Under the pieces are notes generated by a model. The model was not told the DNA's origin, ran no database searches, and saw only the letters and a list, made by a program, of their open reading frames with translations. This document shows, piece by piece, positions 6,570-13,525 of a stretch of DNA of 64,000 nucleotides (position 1 is its first letter; every line of letters begins with the position of its first letter). Both the position numbers and the translations under genes were made by a program. This stretch comes from Hyphomicrobiales bacterium (GTDB taxonomy: Bacteria > Pseudomonadota > Alphaproteobacteria > Rhizobiales > Beijerinckiaceae), in NCBI GenBank assembly GCA_900470095.1, contig UBZM01000020.1, positions 62,001-126,000 on the forward strand, given 5' to 3'.

Positions 6570-7460
6570 ATGGCTGAAGGTTCATTCGCGCCAGGGCCCT
6601 TGATGTTCGCGCCGCCGCTCCCGCCCTCCGCCGATCCGCTGTTGCCGGCCTATGTCCGGGCCAATGGCGGCGTGCGCCTGCGGCTCGCCAGGATTGGCGA
6701 GGTGACGCGCCGGCTCGAACTCGCGGAGTCCGGCGGCTATCGCGCCCGCTTTCCCGACACGTTTGCTTCAACCTGCGAGGCCGTGCTGATCAACACCGGC
6801 GGTGGCATGGCCGGTGGCGACGCGATGCGGGTCGATGCTGTCATCGAGGCGCAAGCCGAGGCGGTCATCACGACGCAGGCGGCCGAAAAGATCTACCGCA
6901 GCCAGGGCGATGACACGCGGATCGAGACCAGTCTCTCGGTTGCCGCCGGGGCGAGCCTCGCCTGGCTGCCGCAGGAGAGCATCCTGTTCTCGGGCGCTCG
7001 CCTCGCCCGGAATTTGACAATCGATCTTGCCGGTGACGCACGGCTCGTCGCCTGTGAATCGATCGTCTTCGGCCGCACGGCCATGGGCGAGACGATGCAG
7101 CGCGGCGCCATTCGCGACCGCTGGCGCATCCGCCGCGACGGCCACCTCGTTTTCGCCGACGCGCTTCACCTCGATGGCGCGGTCGCCGCCACGCTGGAGC
7201 GGCCTGCCATTGCCGCAGGCGCGCGGGCCGTCGCAACCGTGATCGCCGCCGGCTCGGGACATCTCGCCGGGCTCGATGAGCTCCGTGCGCTGCTTGCCGA
7301 GGATCCCGCCTGTGAGGCAGTCGAGGCCGGGGCCGGGCTTATCTCCGGCCTTCTCGTCATTCGCCTTCTCTCCCGCGATGCCCAGGCGCTCCGTCGCGCC
7401 CTCGTCATGCTGCTTCGGCATGTCACGGGGCGTGCGCTGCCGCGCACATGGTCCACGTGA
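6570..7460 (+). CDS. ureD: Urease accessory protein UreD
   Basis: Scaffold protein that binds the urease apoenzyme and, with UreF and UreG, forms the nickel-insertion complex. It is 296 aa from ATG 6570, which has AGGCGG just upstream. ATG 6603 with an AGGG site is an in-frame alternative. UreD landmarks include LINTGGGMAGGD near residue 72, TTQAAEKIYRS near 100 and WLPQESILF near 130. The open frame extends upstream to 6399 inside the PfkB gene, but that extension has no UreD character. It is the first gene of the urease operon; the next gene begins 10 bp after its stop. Confidence 0.95.
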   Translation: MAEGSFAPGPLMFAPPLPPSADPLLPAYVRANGGVRLRLARIGEVTRRLELAESGGYRARFPDTFASTCEAVLINTGGGMAGGDAMRVDAVIEAQAEAVITTQAAEKIYRSQGDDTRIETSLSVAAGASLAWLPQESILFSGARLARNLTIDLAGDARLVACESIVFGRTAMGETMQRGAIRDRWRIRRDGHLVFADALHLDGAVAATLERPAIAAGARAVATVIAAGSGHLAGLDELRALLAEDPACEAVEAGAGLISGLLVIRLLSRDAQALRRALVMLLRHVTGRALPRTWST

Positions 7461-7470
7461 GGAGAGCACC

Positions 7471-7794
7471 ATGCTGGCGATCCAAGGCCTGAAATGCATT
7501 TATGACACCGGCTCGCGGGGCTGGGCTGTTGAGCTCGCCCTTGCCGGCGAGGGAGAAACCGTCACGCGTCGCTTCGACGTCGACGGGCCCGATGATGCCG
7601 AGATGCTGATCGAGGCCTTCGAGGAATCCACCACGAGCAGCTTCGATCCCGCCACCAGCGAGATCGTATTCGCCTATGAATACGCCGATCTCGACCTCGA
7701 TGAGGACGAGGCGGAAGACGAGGACGACGAAGAGGTCGAGGCCTTGGAAGACGAGTCCGAAGAAGACGAGGAAGACGAGAAGGAAAAGGCATGA
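7471..7794 (+). CDS. Small acidic protein encoded inside the urease operon
   Basis: I do not recognise a named family. The protein is 107 aa from ATG 7471 (GGAGAG upstream). Residues 1-70 look like a compact alpha/beta domain. The last 37 residues are extraordinarily acidic, about 25 Asp or Glu, ending in a short Lys-containing tail. No signal peptide or membrane segment is visible, so it is probably cytoplasmic. It starts 10 bp after ureD, and its stop overlaps the ATG of the fused ureAB gene by 4 bp (ATGA), so it is surely translated with urease subunits. A metal (nickel) buffering role, or a partner for the basic tail of the DUF1003 protein two genes on, is my inference only. Confidence 0.85.
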
Positions 7795-8411
7795 ACCTGA
7801 CGCCGCGCGAAAAGGACAAGCTGCTCGTCGCCATGGCTGCCATGGTGGCGCGGCGAAGGCTGGAGCGCGGCGTCAAGCTCAACTATCCGGAGGCCGTTGC
7901 GCTCATCACCGATTTCGTGGTCGAGGGTGCGCGCGACGGTCGCTCCGTCGCCGAGCTGATGGAGGCCGGCGCCCATGTGATCTCCGCCGACCAGGTCATG
8001 GACGGCATCGCCGAGCTGATCCATGACGTGCAGGTCGAGGCGACTTTTCCCGACGGGACCAAGCTCGTCACCGTGCATGAGCCGATCCGCGGCTCGGCGG
8101 GGCGGTTGAAGCCCGGCGAAGTGACGACGTTGCCCGGCGACCTCATTCTCAATGAAGGTCGCGAGAGCCTGATGCTCGCCGTGGCCAATACCGGTGACCG
8201 GCCGATCCAGATCGGCTCCCACTATCATTTCTTCGAGGCGAATCCCGCGCTCTCCTTTGAACGCGAGAAGGCGAGGGGCTTTCGGCTCGACATTCCCGCG
8301 GGAACGGCGGTGCGCTTCGAGCCCGGTCAGACCCGCGAGGTCAGGCTCGTGGCGCTCGGCGGCAAGCGCGAGGTCTATGGCTTCCGGCAGGAGATCATGG
8401 GTAAGCTCTAG
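7791..8411 (+). CDS. ureAB: Urease gamma-beta fusion subunit
   Basis: Structural urease subunit of 206 aa that joins the gamma (UreA, about residues 1-100) and beta (UreB, about 101-206) chains, which are separate in most proteobacteria. UreA landmarks: [11 protein letters not shown] at the N-terminus and [11 protein letters not shown] near 27. UreB landmarks: GDLILNEGR near 117, [17 protein letters not shown] near 128, and [15 protein letters not shown] near 163. The first residues overlap the upstream acidic protein gene by ATGA. The fusion resembles the Helicobacter small subunit in arrangement. It is separated from ureC by a DUF1003 gene. Confidence 0.97.
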
Positions 8412-8444
8412 CGATATCGATGCCGGTGCGGGGTGAGAGTGCCG

Positions 8445-9272
8445 ATGACGGAAATCGCAGAGAAACCGTCGCAACAACTGGCCGCGAACGGAAAGAAGCG
8501 CGGGACTTGCGCCATTTCTGGCGTCGAGACCAGCCGCAAGAACCTCGTCCCGCTTGCCACGTTGCGCCCTTCGCTGGCCGAGCGCATCCAGTCCGACTTT
8601 CCGCAGCTCACCGAGCAGAGCCTGATCAGCAAGACGGAGCTCGCGCGCTACCGCACGCGCTATGTCGAGGAAATCCTGCGTGAGGAGCATGGCGAGTACA
8701 CGGAGCTCGACCGTGAAGTCGTCGAAAGCATCGCCAAGCAGGACACCATCGCGGCGAATGTCGAGGACGATTTCGAGGAGCATCGCACGGTAGGGCAGCG
8801 CCTCTCCGACGGTCTCGCCGGCTTCGGCGGCTCCTGGGCCTTCCTGATCAGCTTTGGGGTCGTGCTGGCGATCTGGATGATGATCAATGTCGTGGAAGGA
8901 ATGGACAAGGCCTTCGACCCCTATCCCTTCATCCTGCTCAACCTCGTCCTCTCCTGCATCGCCGCGATCCAGGCTCCGATCATCATGATGAGCCAGAAGC
9001 GGCAGGAGCAGAAGGACCGTCTGCGCTCGTTCAACGACTATCAGGTCAACCTCAAGGCCGAACTCGAGATTCGCCATCTGCACGAGAAGATCGACCATCT
9101 GATCACCCGGCAATGGCAGCGCCTGGCCGAGATCCAGCAGGTCCAACTCGAGATGCTGCAGGAGGAGAGCCTGCGCGCTACCCGCCGCCGCAAGCCCGCG
9201 GGTGCAAAGGCCAAGACGAAGCGGCGCGCTGAGGACCGGAAGGCCAAGTCGGAGCCGGATGCATCGGCCTGA
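8445..9272 (+). CDS. DUF1003 membrane protein within the urease operon
   Basis: Predicted inner-membrane protein, 275 aa from ATG 8445 (an in-frame GTG at 8433 is possible). The central block has the DUF1003 look: a conserved [12 protein letters not shown]-type lead-in (here [14 protein letters not shown]), then two membrane segments around residues 125-145 and 160-180, then [21 protein letters not shown] and a coiled helix. The C-terminal 35 residues are strongly basic with many Lys and Arg. The N-terminal part has CAISG and is otherwise soluble. The function of DUF1003 is not established to my knowledge. It sits between ureAB (33 bp upstream) and ureC (41 bp downstream), an unusual interruption of the structural genes. 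Confidence 0.88.
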
Positions 9273-9313
9273 GAATTGCTAACACGTCGCGAGAACCGAC
9301 CAGGGACTTCGAG

Positions 9314-11050
9314 ATGCCCTTTCCCTTTCCGCGCAATGCCTATGCCGCCATGTTCGGCCCCACGACCGGCGACACGGTGCGCCTCGGCGATACCGAGCTC
9401 GTCATCAAGGTCGAGAAGGATTTCACCACCTATGGCGAGGAGGTGAAGTTCGGCGGCGGCAAGGTCATCCGCGACGGCATGGGCCAGAGCCAGGTCAGCA
9501 ATGCCGCCGGTGCGGTCGACACCGTCATCACCAACGCGCTGATCCTCGACCATTGGGGCATCGTCAAGGCCGATATCGGTATCCGCGCCGGGCGCATCTG
9601 CGCCATCGGCAAGGCCGGCAATCCCGATATCCAGGATGGGTTCGGGAACTTCGACCCGTCCGAGACCATCATCGTCGGCCCCGGAACCGAGGTCATCGCC
9701 GGGGAAGGCAAGATCATCACCGCCGGCGGCTTCGACAGCCATATCCACTATATCTGCCCGCAACAGATCGAGGACGCGTTGATGAGCGGCCTCACCACGA
9801 TGCTGGGCGGCGGCACCGGCCCGGCCCATGGCACGCTCGCGACGACCTGCACGCCCGGCCCCTGGCATCTCGGCCAGATGATCAGGGCGGCCGACGCCTT
9901 CCCGATGAACCTCGCCTTTGCCGGCAAGGGCAATGCCGCGCTGCCGGGCGCATTGACGGAGATGATCGAGGCCGGCGCCTGCGCGCTGAAGCTGCATGAA
10001 GACTGGGGCACGACACCGGCCGCGATCGACAACTGCCTCTCCGTCGCCGACGACTACGACATCCAGGTGATGATCCACACCGACACGCTGAACGAGAGCG
10101 GTTTCGTCGAGGACACGATCGCGGCCTTCAAAGGCCGCACCATCCACGCCTTCCACACCGAGGGGGCCGGCGGCGGCCACGCGCCCGACATCATGAAAGT
10201 GGCGGGCCTGCCCAATGTGCTGCCGTCCTCGACCAACCCGACGCGGCCCTTCACAGTCAACACGCTCGACGAGCATCTCGACATGCTCATGGTCTGCCAT
10301 CACCTCTCGCCCTCGATCCCTGAGGATCTCGCCTTCGCCGAAAGTCGCATCCGCAAGGAGACGATCGCGGCCGAGGACATCCTGCACGATCTCGGTGCGC
10401 TCTCGATGATGTCCTCGGATAGCCAGGCCATGGGGCGCATCGGCGAGGTCGTGACCCGGACCTGGCAGACCGCGCACAAGATGAAGGTGCAGCGCGGTCC
10501 GCTGCCGCAGGACGCCGGCACCGGCGCCGATAATTTCCGCGCCAAGCGCTATGTCGCGAAATACACGATCAATCCGGCGATCGCGCATGGCATCTCGCGC
10601 CATATCGGCTCGATCGAGATCGGTAAGCTTGCTGATCTCGTGCTCTGGTCGCCGGCCTTCTTCGGCGCCAAGCCCGATCTCGTCCTAAAGGGCGGCATGA
10701 TCGCGGCAGCGCCCATGGGCGATCCCAACGCCTCGATTCCAACGCCGCAGCCGGTGCATTACCGCCCGATGTTCGGCGCCTTCGGCAAGGCCGTGACCAC
10801 GACATCGCTCGTCTTCGTCTCGCAGGCCGCGATGGCGAACGGCCTCAAGTCCCGCCTCGGTACGGACAAGGAGATGGTCGCGGTCGAGAACACGCGCGGC
10901 GGCATCTCCAAGAAGAGCATGATCCACAACGACGCGACGCCCGACATCCGGATCGATCCAGAAACCTATGCGGTGGTGGCGGATGGCGAGTTGCTGGTTT
11001 GCGAACCTGCGAGCGAGCTGCCGCTGGCGCAGCGCTATTTCCTGTTCTAA
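9314..11050 (+). CDS. ureC: Urease alpha (catalytic) subunit
   Basis: Nickel metallohydrolase that splits urea to ammonia and carbamate. It is 578 aa. All active-site residues are present with a uniform +9 offset from the canonical numbering: His143 and His145 (DSHIHY), Lys226 to be carbamylated (ALKLHEDWG), His255, His281 ([13 protein letters not shown]), Cys328 on the mobile flap (MVCHHLS) and Asp369 (SSDSQAMGR). It should therefore be active once the accessory proteins load nickel. It follows the DUF1003 gene by 41 bp. The following 133 bp before the binding-protein gene hold no obvious terminator, so read-through to ureEFG is plausible. Confidence 0.98.
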
Positions 11051-11183
11051 GCGATTGGCTGTCGCCTTGTGCTGTGGATCGCACGGGGTCGCGCCGCTTC
11101 CGTATTGACTAGCCCACTCGCGCATCCTTTCTTCGTCGGCAAATGAATTTGTCAGGCAGACAAGTTTGCCAGGGAGAGAGCTC

Positions 11184-12224
11184 GTGTCCGGTTTCCGTTT
11201 CGCTCGCCAGGCGTCGTTCTGGTTCGCCAGTGCTGCGCTTCTGGCCTCCTATCAACCCGCCGCGGCGCAGGGGCAGGTCACGGTCTATTGCTCGATTCTC
11301 GAAGAGCAGTGCCGTGAGGGCGCGACGATGTTCGAGCGCGCCACCGGCATCAAGGTCTCGATGGTGCGCAAGAGCACGGGCGAGGTCTATGCGCAGGTCA
11401 AGGCGGAAGCCTCCAATCCGCGTGGCGATGTCTGGTGGGGCGGCCCCGGTGAGCCGCATCTGCAGGCGGCGGAGGAGGGGCTGCTCGACGAGTATCGTTC
11501 GCCCAAGCTCGCCGAGCTGCATGATTGGGCGCAGCGTCATGCCGAGCAGTCGAAATTCCGCACCTCCGGCATTTATCTGGGCGCGCTTGGCGTCGGCTAT
11601 AACACCGAGATGCTGAAGAAGAAGGGCCTGCCCGAGCCGAAATGCTGGGCGGACCTGCTCGACCCGGCCTATCGCGACGAGGTCCAGATTGCCGATCCGA
11701 GCTCGTCCGGCACGGCTTACGTCTTCCTCGCGACCACCGTGCAGCGCCTCGGCGAGGAGAAGGGCTTCGACTATCTCAAGGCCCTGCACAAGAACATCAA
11801 CCAGTACACCAAGTCCGGCATTGCACCGGTCAAGGCGACGGCGCTGGGCGAGACGGCGATCGGCATCGCCTTCATCCACGACATGCTGACGCAGAAGCTT
11901 CAGGGGGCGCCGATCAAGACCGTCGCGCCCTGCGAAGGCACGGGCTACGAGACCGGCTCGGTTTCGATCATCAAGGGCGGCAGGAATGCCGAGGCGGCGC
12001 GCCGTTTCATCGATTTCACGCTCTCGCCCGAGGCGCAGAACATCAACGCCAAGCTCAAGATCAACTCCATCCCGTCGAACAGGAATGCCGAACTCTCTCC
12101 CGACGCGCCAAAGTTCTCGGAGATCAAGCTGATCGACTACGATACGCCGCGCTGGGGCAGCCCGGCCGAGCGCTCGCGACTGCTGAAGAAGTTCGACACC
12201 GAGGTGAAGGCGCTGCCACGGTAA
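11184..12224 (+). CDS. Periplasmic ABC substrate-binding protein (iron/AfuA-like family 1)
   Basis: Secreted binding protein of about 346 aa with a Sec signal peptide ending near AAAQ (residues 1-29). The mature part starts GQVTVYCSILEEQC and has the family-1 iron/thiamine-like pattern, with GVGYNTEMLKKKGLPEPKCW near 142 and FIDFTLSPEAQN near 280. I chose GTG 11184 because AGGGAGAG lies at optimal spacing; a TTG at 11166 is in frame. No ABC permease or ATPase gene is nearby, so it is an orphan inside the urease operon between ureC and ureE. The ligand is unknown; urea or nickel cannot be claimed, since it does not resemble UrtA or NikA. Confidence 0.88.
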   Translation: MSGFRFARQASFWFASAALLASYQPAAAQGQVTVYCSILEEQCREGATMFERATGIKVSMVRKSTGEVYAQVKAEASNPRGDVWWGGPGEPHLQAAEEGLLDEYRSPKLAELHDWAQRHAEQSKFRTSGIYLGALGVGYNTEMLKKKGLPEPKCWADLLDPAYRDEVQIADPSSSGTAYVFLATTVQRLGEEKGFDYLKALHKNINQYTKSGIAPVKATALGETAIGIAFIHDMLTQKLQGAPIKTVAPCEGTGYETGSVSIIKGGRNAEAARRFIDFTLSPEAQNINAKLKINSIPSNRNAELSPDAPKFSEIKLIDYDTPRWGSPAERSRLLKKFDTEVKALPR

Positions 12225-12724: not shown

Positions 12725-13525
12725 ATGCTGCGCGCCACCTCCGTCGTCCGCAAGGCCGCGGTCAAGCAGGACAAGGTCGTTGAGACCCTGACGCTCGACC
12801 ATGAGGACCGCAATCGCCGCCGCATCGCGCTGAAGGGCGATGGCGGGCGCGAGATTCTGCTCGATCTCGACAAGCCGACGGTTCTGAATGACGGCGATGC
12901 CGTGAAGCTCGAAGACGGCAGCCTGGTCCTGATCAGGGCCGCTGTGCAGAGCCTGCTCGAAGTGCGGGCCGAGAACCCGCTGCGGCTGATGCGCGTCGCC
13001 TGGCATATCGGCAACCGGCACACACCGGCGGAGATCACGGCGGACGCCATCTATATCGAGAACGACCATGTGCTGGCCGAGATGGTCCGTGGCCAGGGCT
13101 GTGCCATGAGCGTGGTCGAGCGTCCGTTCCAGCCCGAGCGCGGCGCCTATGATCACGGTCACGCCCACGACCATGAACACAGCCATGATCACGATCACGC
13201 GCATGACGCGTCCTGCGGCTGCGGGCACGATCACGGCCACGCTCATCACGACAAGGGGCACGCTCACGCCGGCCATGATCATGCTCATGATCACCATGGT
13301 CACGACCACCATGAGAACAAGCGTGATGATCACGCGAACCACGCCCATGCGCATGCCCACGCCGATGCCGATGCCCATGCCCATGCCCATGCCCATGCGC
13401 ATGCCCACGGCGCGGATTGCGGCTGTGGACACGACCACAGCCATGGCGATCATGATCATAAGCATGACCACGGCCACCATCATGGCGCCGAACACGCGCA
13501 TAAGGGTCACAAACACGACCACTGA
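12725..13525 (+). CDS. ureE: Urease accessory protein UreE with very long histidine-rich tail
   Basis: Nickel metallochaperone that delivers nickel to UreG/UreC. It is 266 aa, where most UreE proteins are 150-180. Residues 1-140 hold the peptide-binding and metal-binding domains; the dimer-interface nickel ligand is His99 in IGNRHTP. From about residue 143 to the end the chain is a tail with about 50 His in roughly 124 residues, alternating with Asp, Gly and Ala, and carrying two copies of a CGCGHDH motif. The tail could bind many nickel ions, acting as storage as well as delivery. The DNA under it contains a run of CATGCC-type hexamers. It begins 27 bp after the ABM gene; ureF follows after 6 bp. 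Confidence 0.96.
   Translation: MLRATSVVRKAAVKQDKVVETLTLDHEDRNRRRIALKGDGGREILLDLDKPTVLNDGDAVKLEDGSLVLIRAAVQSLLEVRAENPLRLMRVAWHIGNRHTPAEITADAIYIENDHVLAEMVRGQGCAMSVVERPFQPERGAYDHGHAHDHEHSHDHDHAHDASCGCGHDHGHAHHDKGHAHAGHDHAHDHHGHDHHENKRDDHANHAHAHAHADADAHAHAHAHAHAHGADCGCGHDHSHGDHDHKHDHGHHHGAEHAHKGHKHDH
13345..13408 (+). repeat. CATGCC-type hexanucleotide repeat within ureE
   Basis: A stretch of near-perfect tandem hexamers (CATGCC with CATGCG, GATGCC and CACGCC variants) that codes for alternating His-Ala in the UreE tail. Because the unit is 6 bp, gain or loss by slippage keeps the reading frame and changes only tail length. Boundaries are approximate. Confidence 0.8.

Follow-up and report, generated by a model that had tools for sequence, protein, structure and literature searches.

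A small acidic protein encoded between ureD and ureAB in Bosea is retained at loci without urease genes

Urease operons of rhizobia are interrupted by unknown open reading frames (ORFs) located between the ure genes, and bacterial SSB combines a small β-barrel with a C-terminal tail that is both disordered and acidic. A comparable arrangement is described for Hfq, an Sm barrel with an acidic, disordered C-terminal domain (PMC5606850). Among proteins linked to urease itself are Hpn and Hpn-2 of Helicobacter, two small proteins that bind nickel; Hpn is reported to sequester the metal and to contact UreA (PMC4671568). The acidic protein analysed in this study, which is encoded between ureD and a fused ureAB gene, resembles each of these systems in part. 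Like Hpn and Hpn-2, it is small, lineage-restricted and urease-linked; however, the Hpn proteins are His-rich, whereas the acidic protein has no His in the copy from the window (the 64-kb stretch of DNA analysed here) and only 4 His or Cys among the 1758 tail residues of 46 orthologues. Two further differences from Hpn and Hpn-2 are its predicted folded core and its persistence in the absence of urease. It shares with UreE a location at the same locus and a charged low-complexity tail, and UreE is kept beside its gene in all 21 urease-free loci, but no family match connects the two proteins, and the nickel motif of UreE tracks urease while the columns of the acidic core do not. The predicted order of a small β-barrel and a disordered acidic tail is that of Hfq and SSB, although no sequence match or significant fold match to them was obtained and the core of the acidic protein is itself acidic. 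Finally, as in the interrupted rhizobial operons, an unrelated ORF is here interleaved with ure genes in Hyphomicrobiales, yet no convincing relative of the protein outside its genus was found among 397 genomes of the order.

In the window, the gene for the acidic protein occupies positions 7471..7794 of the forward strand (ATG at 7471, TGA ending at 7794) and encodes 107 amino acids with one Cys, no His and a net charge of -34. On the same strand it is preceded by ureD (6570..7460; Pfam) and followed by ureAB, which encodes the fused gamma and beta subunits (7791..8411; Pfam and NCBIfam). A Shine-Dalgarno-like AGGAGAG (7460..7466), whose first base is also the final base of the ureD stop codon (7458-7460), ends 4 nt upstream of the ATG; the same motif precedes the gene in 43 of 46 orthologues, and the remaining three have AGGAGTT, AGGAGAA or AGGAGAC instead. 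The stop codon overlaps the ureAB start codon within an ATGA (7791..7794), an arrangement present at 25 of 25 loci with urease genes and at none of the 21 loci without them, where there is no ureAB. The coordinates thus agree with the original prediction of a 107-aa ORF that lies between ureD and ureAB and ends in an ATGA overlap.

The remainder of the forward-strand cluster comprises a gene for a DUF1003 protein with a basic tail (8445..9272; Pfam) located between ureAB and ureC, ureC itself (9314..11050; Pfam and NCBIfam), a gene for a solute-binding protein (11166..12224; Pfam) and ureE, which encodes a His-rich tail and a GNRH motif (12725..13525; Pfam and NCBIfam); UreF was confirmed through Pfam and UreG through both Pfam and NCBIfam. 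The complete order at the locus is a CDF cation-efflux transporter (opposite strand), a glyoxalase-family protein, galM (aldose epimerase), a pfkB-family kinase, ureD, the acidic gene, ureAB, DUF1003, ureC, the solute-binding protein, an ABM-domain protein, ureE, ureF, ureG, ureJ, an ANTAR protein, an amidohydrolase and uxuA (opposite strand). The solute-binding protein, between ureC and ureE, resembles 2-aminoethylphosphonate binders (TIGR03261, below the cut-off), and no permease or ATPase gene was found among the scanned genes of the locus. At L112 (genome G046), a very close relative of the window, DUF1003 is absent from the locus, and none was found in the whole genome.

The acidic protein consists of two parts. 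Its conserved 72-aa core (7471..7686) is predicted to form three strands, a helix and two strands with a pLDDT of about 93-95 (AlphaFold mean pLDDT of 93 for the core alone), and the acidic tail (7687..7791) is predicted to be disordered, with a pLDDT of about 50. Eleven core residues (M1, I4, K8, C9, Y11, W18, R34, A49, F50, D59 and E64) are invariant in 27 aligned members, so that K8-C9-x-Y11 stands among the invariant positions, and the core carries a net charge of -11. The order of three strands, helix and two strands is in agreement with an OB arrangement; however, the best Foldseek matches had E values of 0.06 and 0.13, short of the 0.001 threshold, and the best VIA scores were Z 5.8 and 5.5, a level at which the tool warns of a merely common arrangement. 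The weak structural matches at Z 5.8 or below include PH-like, OB-like and other domains, and since none of the fold matches exceeded this value, no fold name is claimed for the core. A disordered, acidic C-terminal tail like those of SSB and Hfq is a feature that the acidic protein is predicted to share.

The acidity of the tail is both extreme and conserved. The last 37 residues contain exactly 25 Asp or Glu, the number that had been estimated as about 25, and this count is reached only by the acidic frame among the 353 six-frame ORFs of at least 60 aa in the window; the binomial probability of 25 in 37, given a combined Asp and Glu frequency of 0.102 and with residues treated as independent, is 8e-17. 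Elsewhere in the window, the highest count among 67 coding-like ORFs was 9, and in 40 related loci 32 of 617 ORFs had 18 or more Asp or Glu in their last 37 residues, all of them copies of the acidic gene, which the ORF picker behind these two sets had skipped in the window and in 8 of the 40 loci. Tail length ranges from 30 to 46 residues across 46 orthologues, with 53-71% Asp or Glu, and every one of the 46 tails has one to three Lys or Arg within its final eight residues; several of the aligned rows stop short of the tail end. This conservation rules out a chance tail, a slippage artefact or a wrongly assigned start. Because His and Cys are nearly absent (4 among 1758 tail residues), a classical nickel site in the tail is unlikely, and the nickel buffer proposed in the original prediction is correspondingly improbable in that form; any buffering would have to be acidic and of low affinity, through weak, multivalent attraction of cations to Asp and Glu.

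The genome of the window belongs to a genus identified through named relatives as Bosea. A search with a profile of the core found the acidic protein in 57 of its 67 genomes; the ten genomes lacking it are small (3.2-4.5 Mb). At the level of the family, matches were obtained in 11 of 199 genomes, of which two (G529 and G513) belong to two other genera, and a scan of a collection of named genomes yielded 40 loci, nearly all labelled Bosea or Hyphomicrobiales. In G529, the gene is again located between ureD and ureAB with the ATGA overlap. In G513, which is 86% complete, it adjoins a gene for a PLP enzyme of Cys/Met metabolism, and neither a urease gamma subunit nor UreG was found there. Profile searches of the order (397 genomes) and the class (385 genomes) gave no convincing match beyond the genus: four rows at E 0.004-0.01 were taken as chance, being short pieces of longer frames, and in a first search of the order, in which 174 of 397 genomes gave a row at E 1 or better, only the three rows from the genus were strong, and the others (E 0.002 and worse) were ascribed to chance.

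Reference libraries were similarly silent on the acidic protein. There was no match in NCBIfam and nothing over the cut-off in Pfam, including the known urease accessory families (UreD/E/F/G/H/J); a sequence search of the PDB gave a best row at E 0.27, and a profile search of the PDB gave none. A match to NOA36 (E 0.026, residues 8-104) covered mostly the tail and fell below its own cut-off, and neither phrog_11968 of PHROGs (E 0.26) nor four Pfam rows (E 0.05-0.25, each in one or two of 21 members) could be used. No paper on the acidic protein was present among the matches listed in a search of open-licence literature. The acidic protein is a real family, undescribed in the libraries searched, whose build of a small barrel and a disordered acidic tail is of a known kind. 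It had been called conserved-looking and unlike any described urease accessory protein, and both descriptions hold: the first in view of its presence in 57 of the 67 Bosea genomes and a core dN/dS of about 0.18, the second for Pfam, NCBIfam, the PDB and the literature searched.

The association of the gene with urease is incomplete in both directions. UreD is encoded within 2 kb of the acidic gene in 35 of the 57 genomes, elsewhere in 19 and nowhere in three (G018, G052 and G455), so the gene does not adjoin ureD in 22 of 57. In G018 and G052, both listed as 100% complete, no UreD, gamma subunit, UreG or over-cut-off Urease_alpha was found (a single alpha row in G018 scored 21.9 bits, below the cut-off of 23), and the acidic gene is kept in both. 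Occurrence is thus not confined to genomes with urease, as G018, G052 and G513 contain the protein and no urease gamma or UreG was found in any of the three. Conversely, UreD is present in nine of the ten genomes of the genus that lack the acidic protein, and at 11 further ureD-ureA junctions in the genus the two genes lie 8-31 nt apart without a gene of this kind between them. Bosea thus has ureases that are not accompanied by the acidic protein, and the protein in turn does not depend on a urease. The original prediction of a tie to urease held insofar as the ATGA overlap with ureAB is found wherever urease was seen at the site (25 of 25 loci, and also L164 of another genus), but a role in working for urease is not supported, since homologues occur outside urease operons, the outcome that had been named as refuting it, in 22 of the 57 Bosea genomes with the gene; in the loci examined, these occupy the same chromosomal site and are not scattered. 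The third genome without UreD, G455, encodes divergent ureAB (47%) and ureC (62%) at L169 (around 6846-9337) and gave no UreD or UreG matches; judged by its genes, this urease-like enzyme may be matured differently or may be inactive.

How the urease-free loci arose was considered in a comparison of 46 loci, 40 from the scan of the genome collection and 6 more, with the window itself not included. Because the acidic gene was the means of collecting these loci, its own occurrence is built into the sample, which is not the case for DUF1003 and UreE in the urease-free group. By tblastn at 1e-20, 25 loci carry urease genes and 21 do not (L113, L124, L125, L136, L138-L140, L143-L146, L148-L151, L094-L097, L100 and L102). 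The genes ureD, ureAB and ureC are gone from all 21, and pfkB (21/21), DUF1003 (21/21), the solute-binding protein (19/21), UreE (21/21) and the CDF-glyoxalase flank (recognised in 21/21) are retained. Immediately upstream of the acidic gene, each of the 21 loci also preserves a scrap of the 3' end of ureD, 35-94 nt long and 71-93% identical, with E values from 1e-23 to 4e-4 (weakest in L139, L140 and L143, at 1e-4 to 4e-4). These scraps show that urease was lost, and they rule out the gain of urease by a previously urease-free locus. At L113, scraps of ureG and a ureJ remain as well.

The loss was likely not a single event. When the scraps were compared with three ureD sources only (the window, L118 and L141), all four from the B. 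lupini clade were closest to L118 of that same clade, and the other 17 were closest to L141 in 14 cases and to L118 in 3. The presence of urease changes five times on the tree of the flank (built by a quick method) and on the tree of the acidic gene, with three of the changes forced by well-supported branches. The alternative of one loss that was then passed on by transfer of the locus was rejected, as both trees keep two separate groups. Together, these sequence comparisons suggest that urease was likely lost in at least two lineages, and the removal of ureD, ureAB and ureC with the sparing of the acidic gene and DUF1003 would have required several separate deletions.

The acidic protein is under the same purifying selection with and without urease. 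The median pairwise dN/dS of the core, calculated over pairs that are not independent, is 0.179 for the 21 urease-free loci (193 pairs) and 0.180 for the 25 loci with urease (290 pairs), and the cores of L148 (G018) and L150 (G052) gave 0.134 and 0.118 against the other urease-free loci. In the B. lupini clade, cores from the two kinds of locus are 96-100% identical with no column separating them; no core column separates them over all 46 loci either, and column 17 does so in the comparison within the other clade.

In UreE, by comparison, the loss of urease is accompanied by a change of motif. GNRH is present in 20 of 20 readable loci with urease (L114, L116, L126, L127 and L128, whose stretches end before the expected ureE, were left out) and likewise in each of 8 further UreE proteins; no UreE motif was seen in L165, L166, L167, L169 and L176, which are stretches with other urease genes. 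In the 21 urease-free loci, the motif is instead GGHH (17), GGNH (3) or GGRH (1), and the His-rich tail is kept, with 35-46 His after the motif. UreE in four of these loci was missed by tblastn and found through ORFs and a motif scan. A UreE homologue is also kept at L148 (G018) and L150 (G052), in genomes in which no UreD, gamma subunit or UreG was found. The last His of the motif would be equivalent to His96 of Klebsiella UreE. A review describes this Klebsiella residue as conserved and important for urease activation (PMC7055735). It seems that UreE of the urease-free loci kept its metal ligand and shed a constraint related to urease, and that the acidic protein underwent no such shift.

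Trees of UreE, built without L124, L143, L146 and L149, depend on this motif. With the motif included, the 17 urease-free UreE rows used group together (87/99) across both lineages, whereas masking of the motif returns the B. lupini group to its own sisters (100/95.9). In AU tests, a single clade of these urease-free UreE proteins was not rejected (p-AU 0.29), and a constraint holding the other urease-free group with L141 and L137 was mildly disfavoured (p-AU 0.041). Convergence of the UreE motif in two lineages is likely on balance, although the tree with the motif included counts against two independent changes.

Several explanations of the acidic protein can be weighed against these observations. 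It could be a urease accessory protein that binds UreD-UreAB or buffers nickel, and that serves a second urease where its own site has none. Such a role would agree with the ATGA that joins the gene to ureAB at all 25 loci with urease, with the acidic gene in the same slot at L164 of another genus and with the presence of UreD elsewhere in 19 of the 22 genomes without an adjoining UreD, and because of these 19 genomes, service to a second urease is directly opposed only by G018 and G052, which keep the gene under selection and in which no urease genes were found. However, nine genomes of the genus have UreD and lack the protein, the 11 other ureD-ureA junctions lack the gene, and no core column tracks urease over the 46 loci although the UreE motif does; we thus consider an accessory role unlikely. 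An equally unlikely reading is that the protein is a small-barrel regulator unrelated to metals, whose core binds nucleic acid or protein and whose tail auto-inhibits or competes, as in Hfq and SSB. A confidently predicted small β-rich domain with a disordered acidic tail, together with several OB-fold and PH-like domains among the weak structural matches, would fit this function, but the core charge of -11 is unlike that of most nucleic-acid binders, and those matches reached a VIA Z of at most 5.8 with none by Foldseek at E 0.001 or better.

A slightly less probable alternative than either of these is that the acidic tail acts as an electrostatic partner that binds the basic C-terminal tail of DUF1003. 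The two DUF1003 tails read (the window and L095) are rich in Lys and Arg, and DUF1003 is encoded at 21 of 21 urease-free loci; it is nonetheless found at only 14 of 25 loci with urease and is thus missing from 11, and three of 15 genomes checked (G046, G513 and G529) contain the acidic protein with no DUF1003 match in the genome. DUF1003, which had been suggested as a partner, is consequently not an obligate one. The reading of the ORF as a translational leader or neutral passenger that only couples ribosomes into ureAB, for which the 25 of 25 ATGA overlaps could again be cited, is already contradicted by an equal dN/dS and an intact tail in 21 loci without ureAB, as well as by the confident predicted fold, and we give it almost no weight.

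We instead favour, with a probability of roughly 0.55, a lineage-restricted and probably cytosolic protein with a function of its own, which is co-translated with ureAB in Bosea and is no dedicated urease accessory protein. Its independence from urease is the firmest part of this reading and is very probable, even though the constant overlap with ureAB, seen at 25 of 25 loci with urease, counts against it by arguing for some benefit of co-expression. According to this model, the acidic protein came to lie inside the Bosea urease operon, where it would be co-translated with ureAB; ureD, ureAB and ureC were then deleted around its gene, which persisted under the same purifying selection; such deletion most probably took place in two or more lineages. 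The folded 72-aa small-barrel core would bind a partner, and the disordered tail would work by charge, as an electrostatic arm that attracts cations or gates access of the partner. The setting could be the handling of metal ions, first beside urease and later without it, because a His-rich UreE with an altered nickel motif and DUF1003 both stay in 21 of 21 urease-free loci; this setting is a tentative suggestion. A little more speculative still is the possibility that the acidic protein, DUF1003 and UreE with its GG[HNR]H motif make up a unit for metal handling that remained after the enzyme's genes had been deleted from between its members in at least two Bosea lineages. In such a unit, UreE would have changed alike each time and the acidic protein would found a new class of acidic, small-barrel metallochaperone partner.

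Operon position and translational overlap are routinely taken as functional ties, and the acidic gene is a warning against such guilt by association. Its locus amounts to a natural deletion experiment, most probably run in two or more lineages: the genes on either side were lost, and the protein was equally constrained afterwards. The motif switch in UreE (21 of 21 urease-free loci against 0 of 20 readable loci with urease) points to residues that may serve delivery to urease and not metal binding, and it raises the question, testable in urease-free strains, of what metal role a leftover UreE and its acidic neighbour have when there is no urease to load. A further arrangement was observed at L172-L175 (genomes G014, G005, G024 and G030), where a urease-less locus coexists with a second, distant urease cluster; in these second clusters, ureE, ureG and ureF are located on the opposite strand to ureD-ureAB-ureC.
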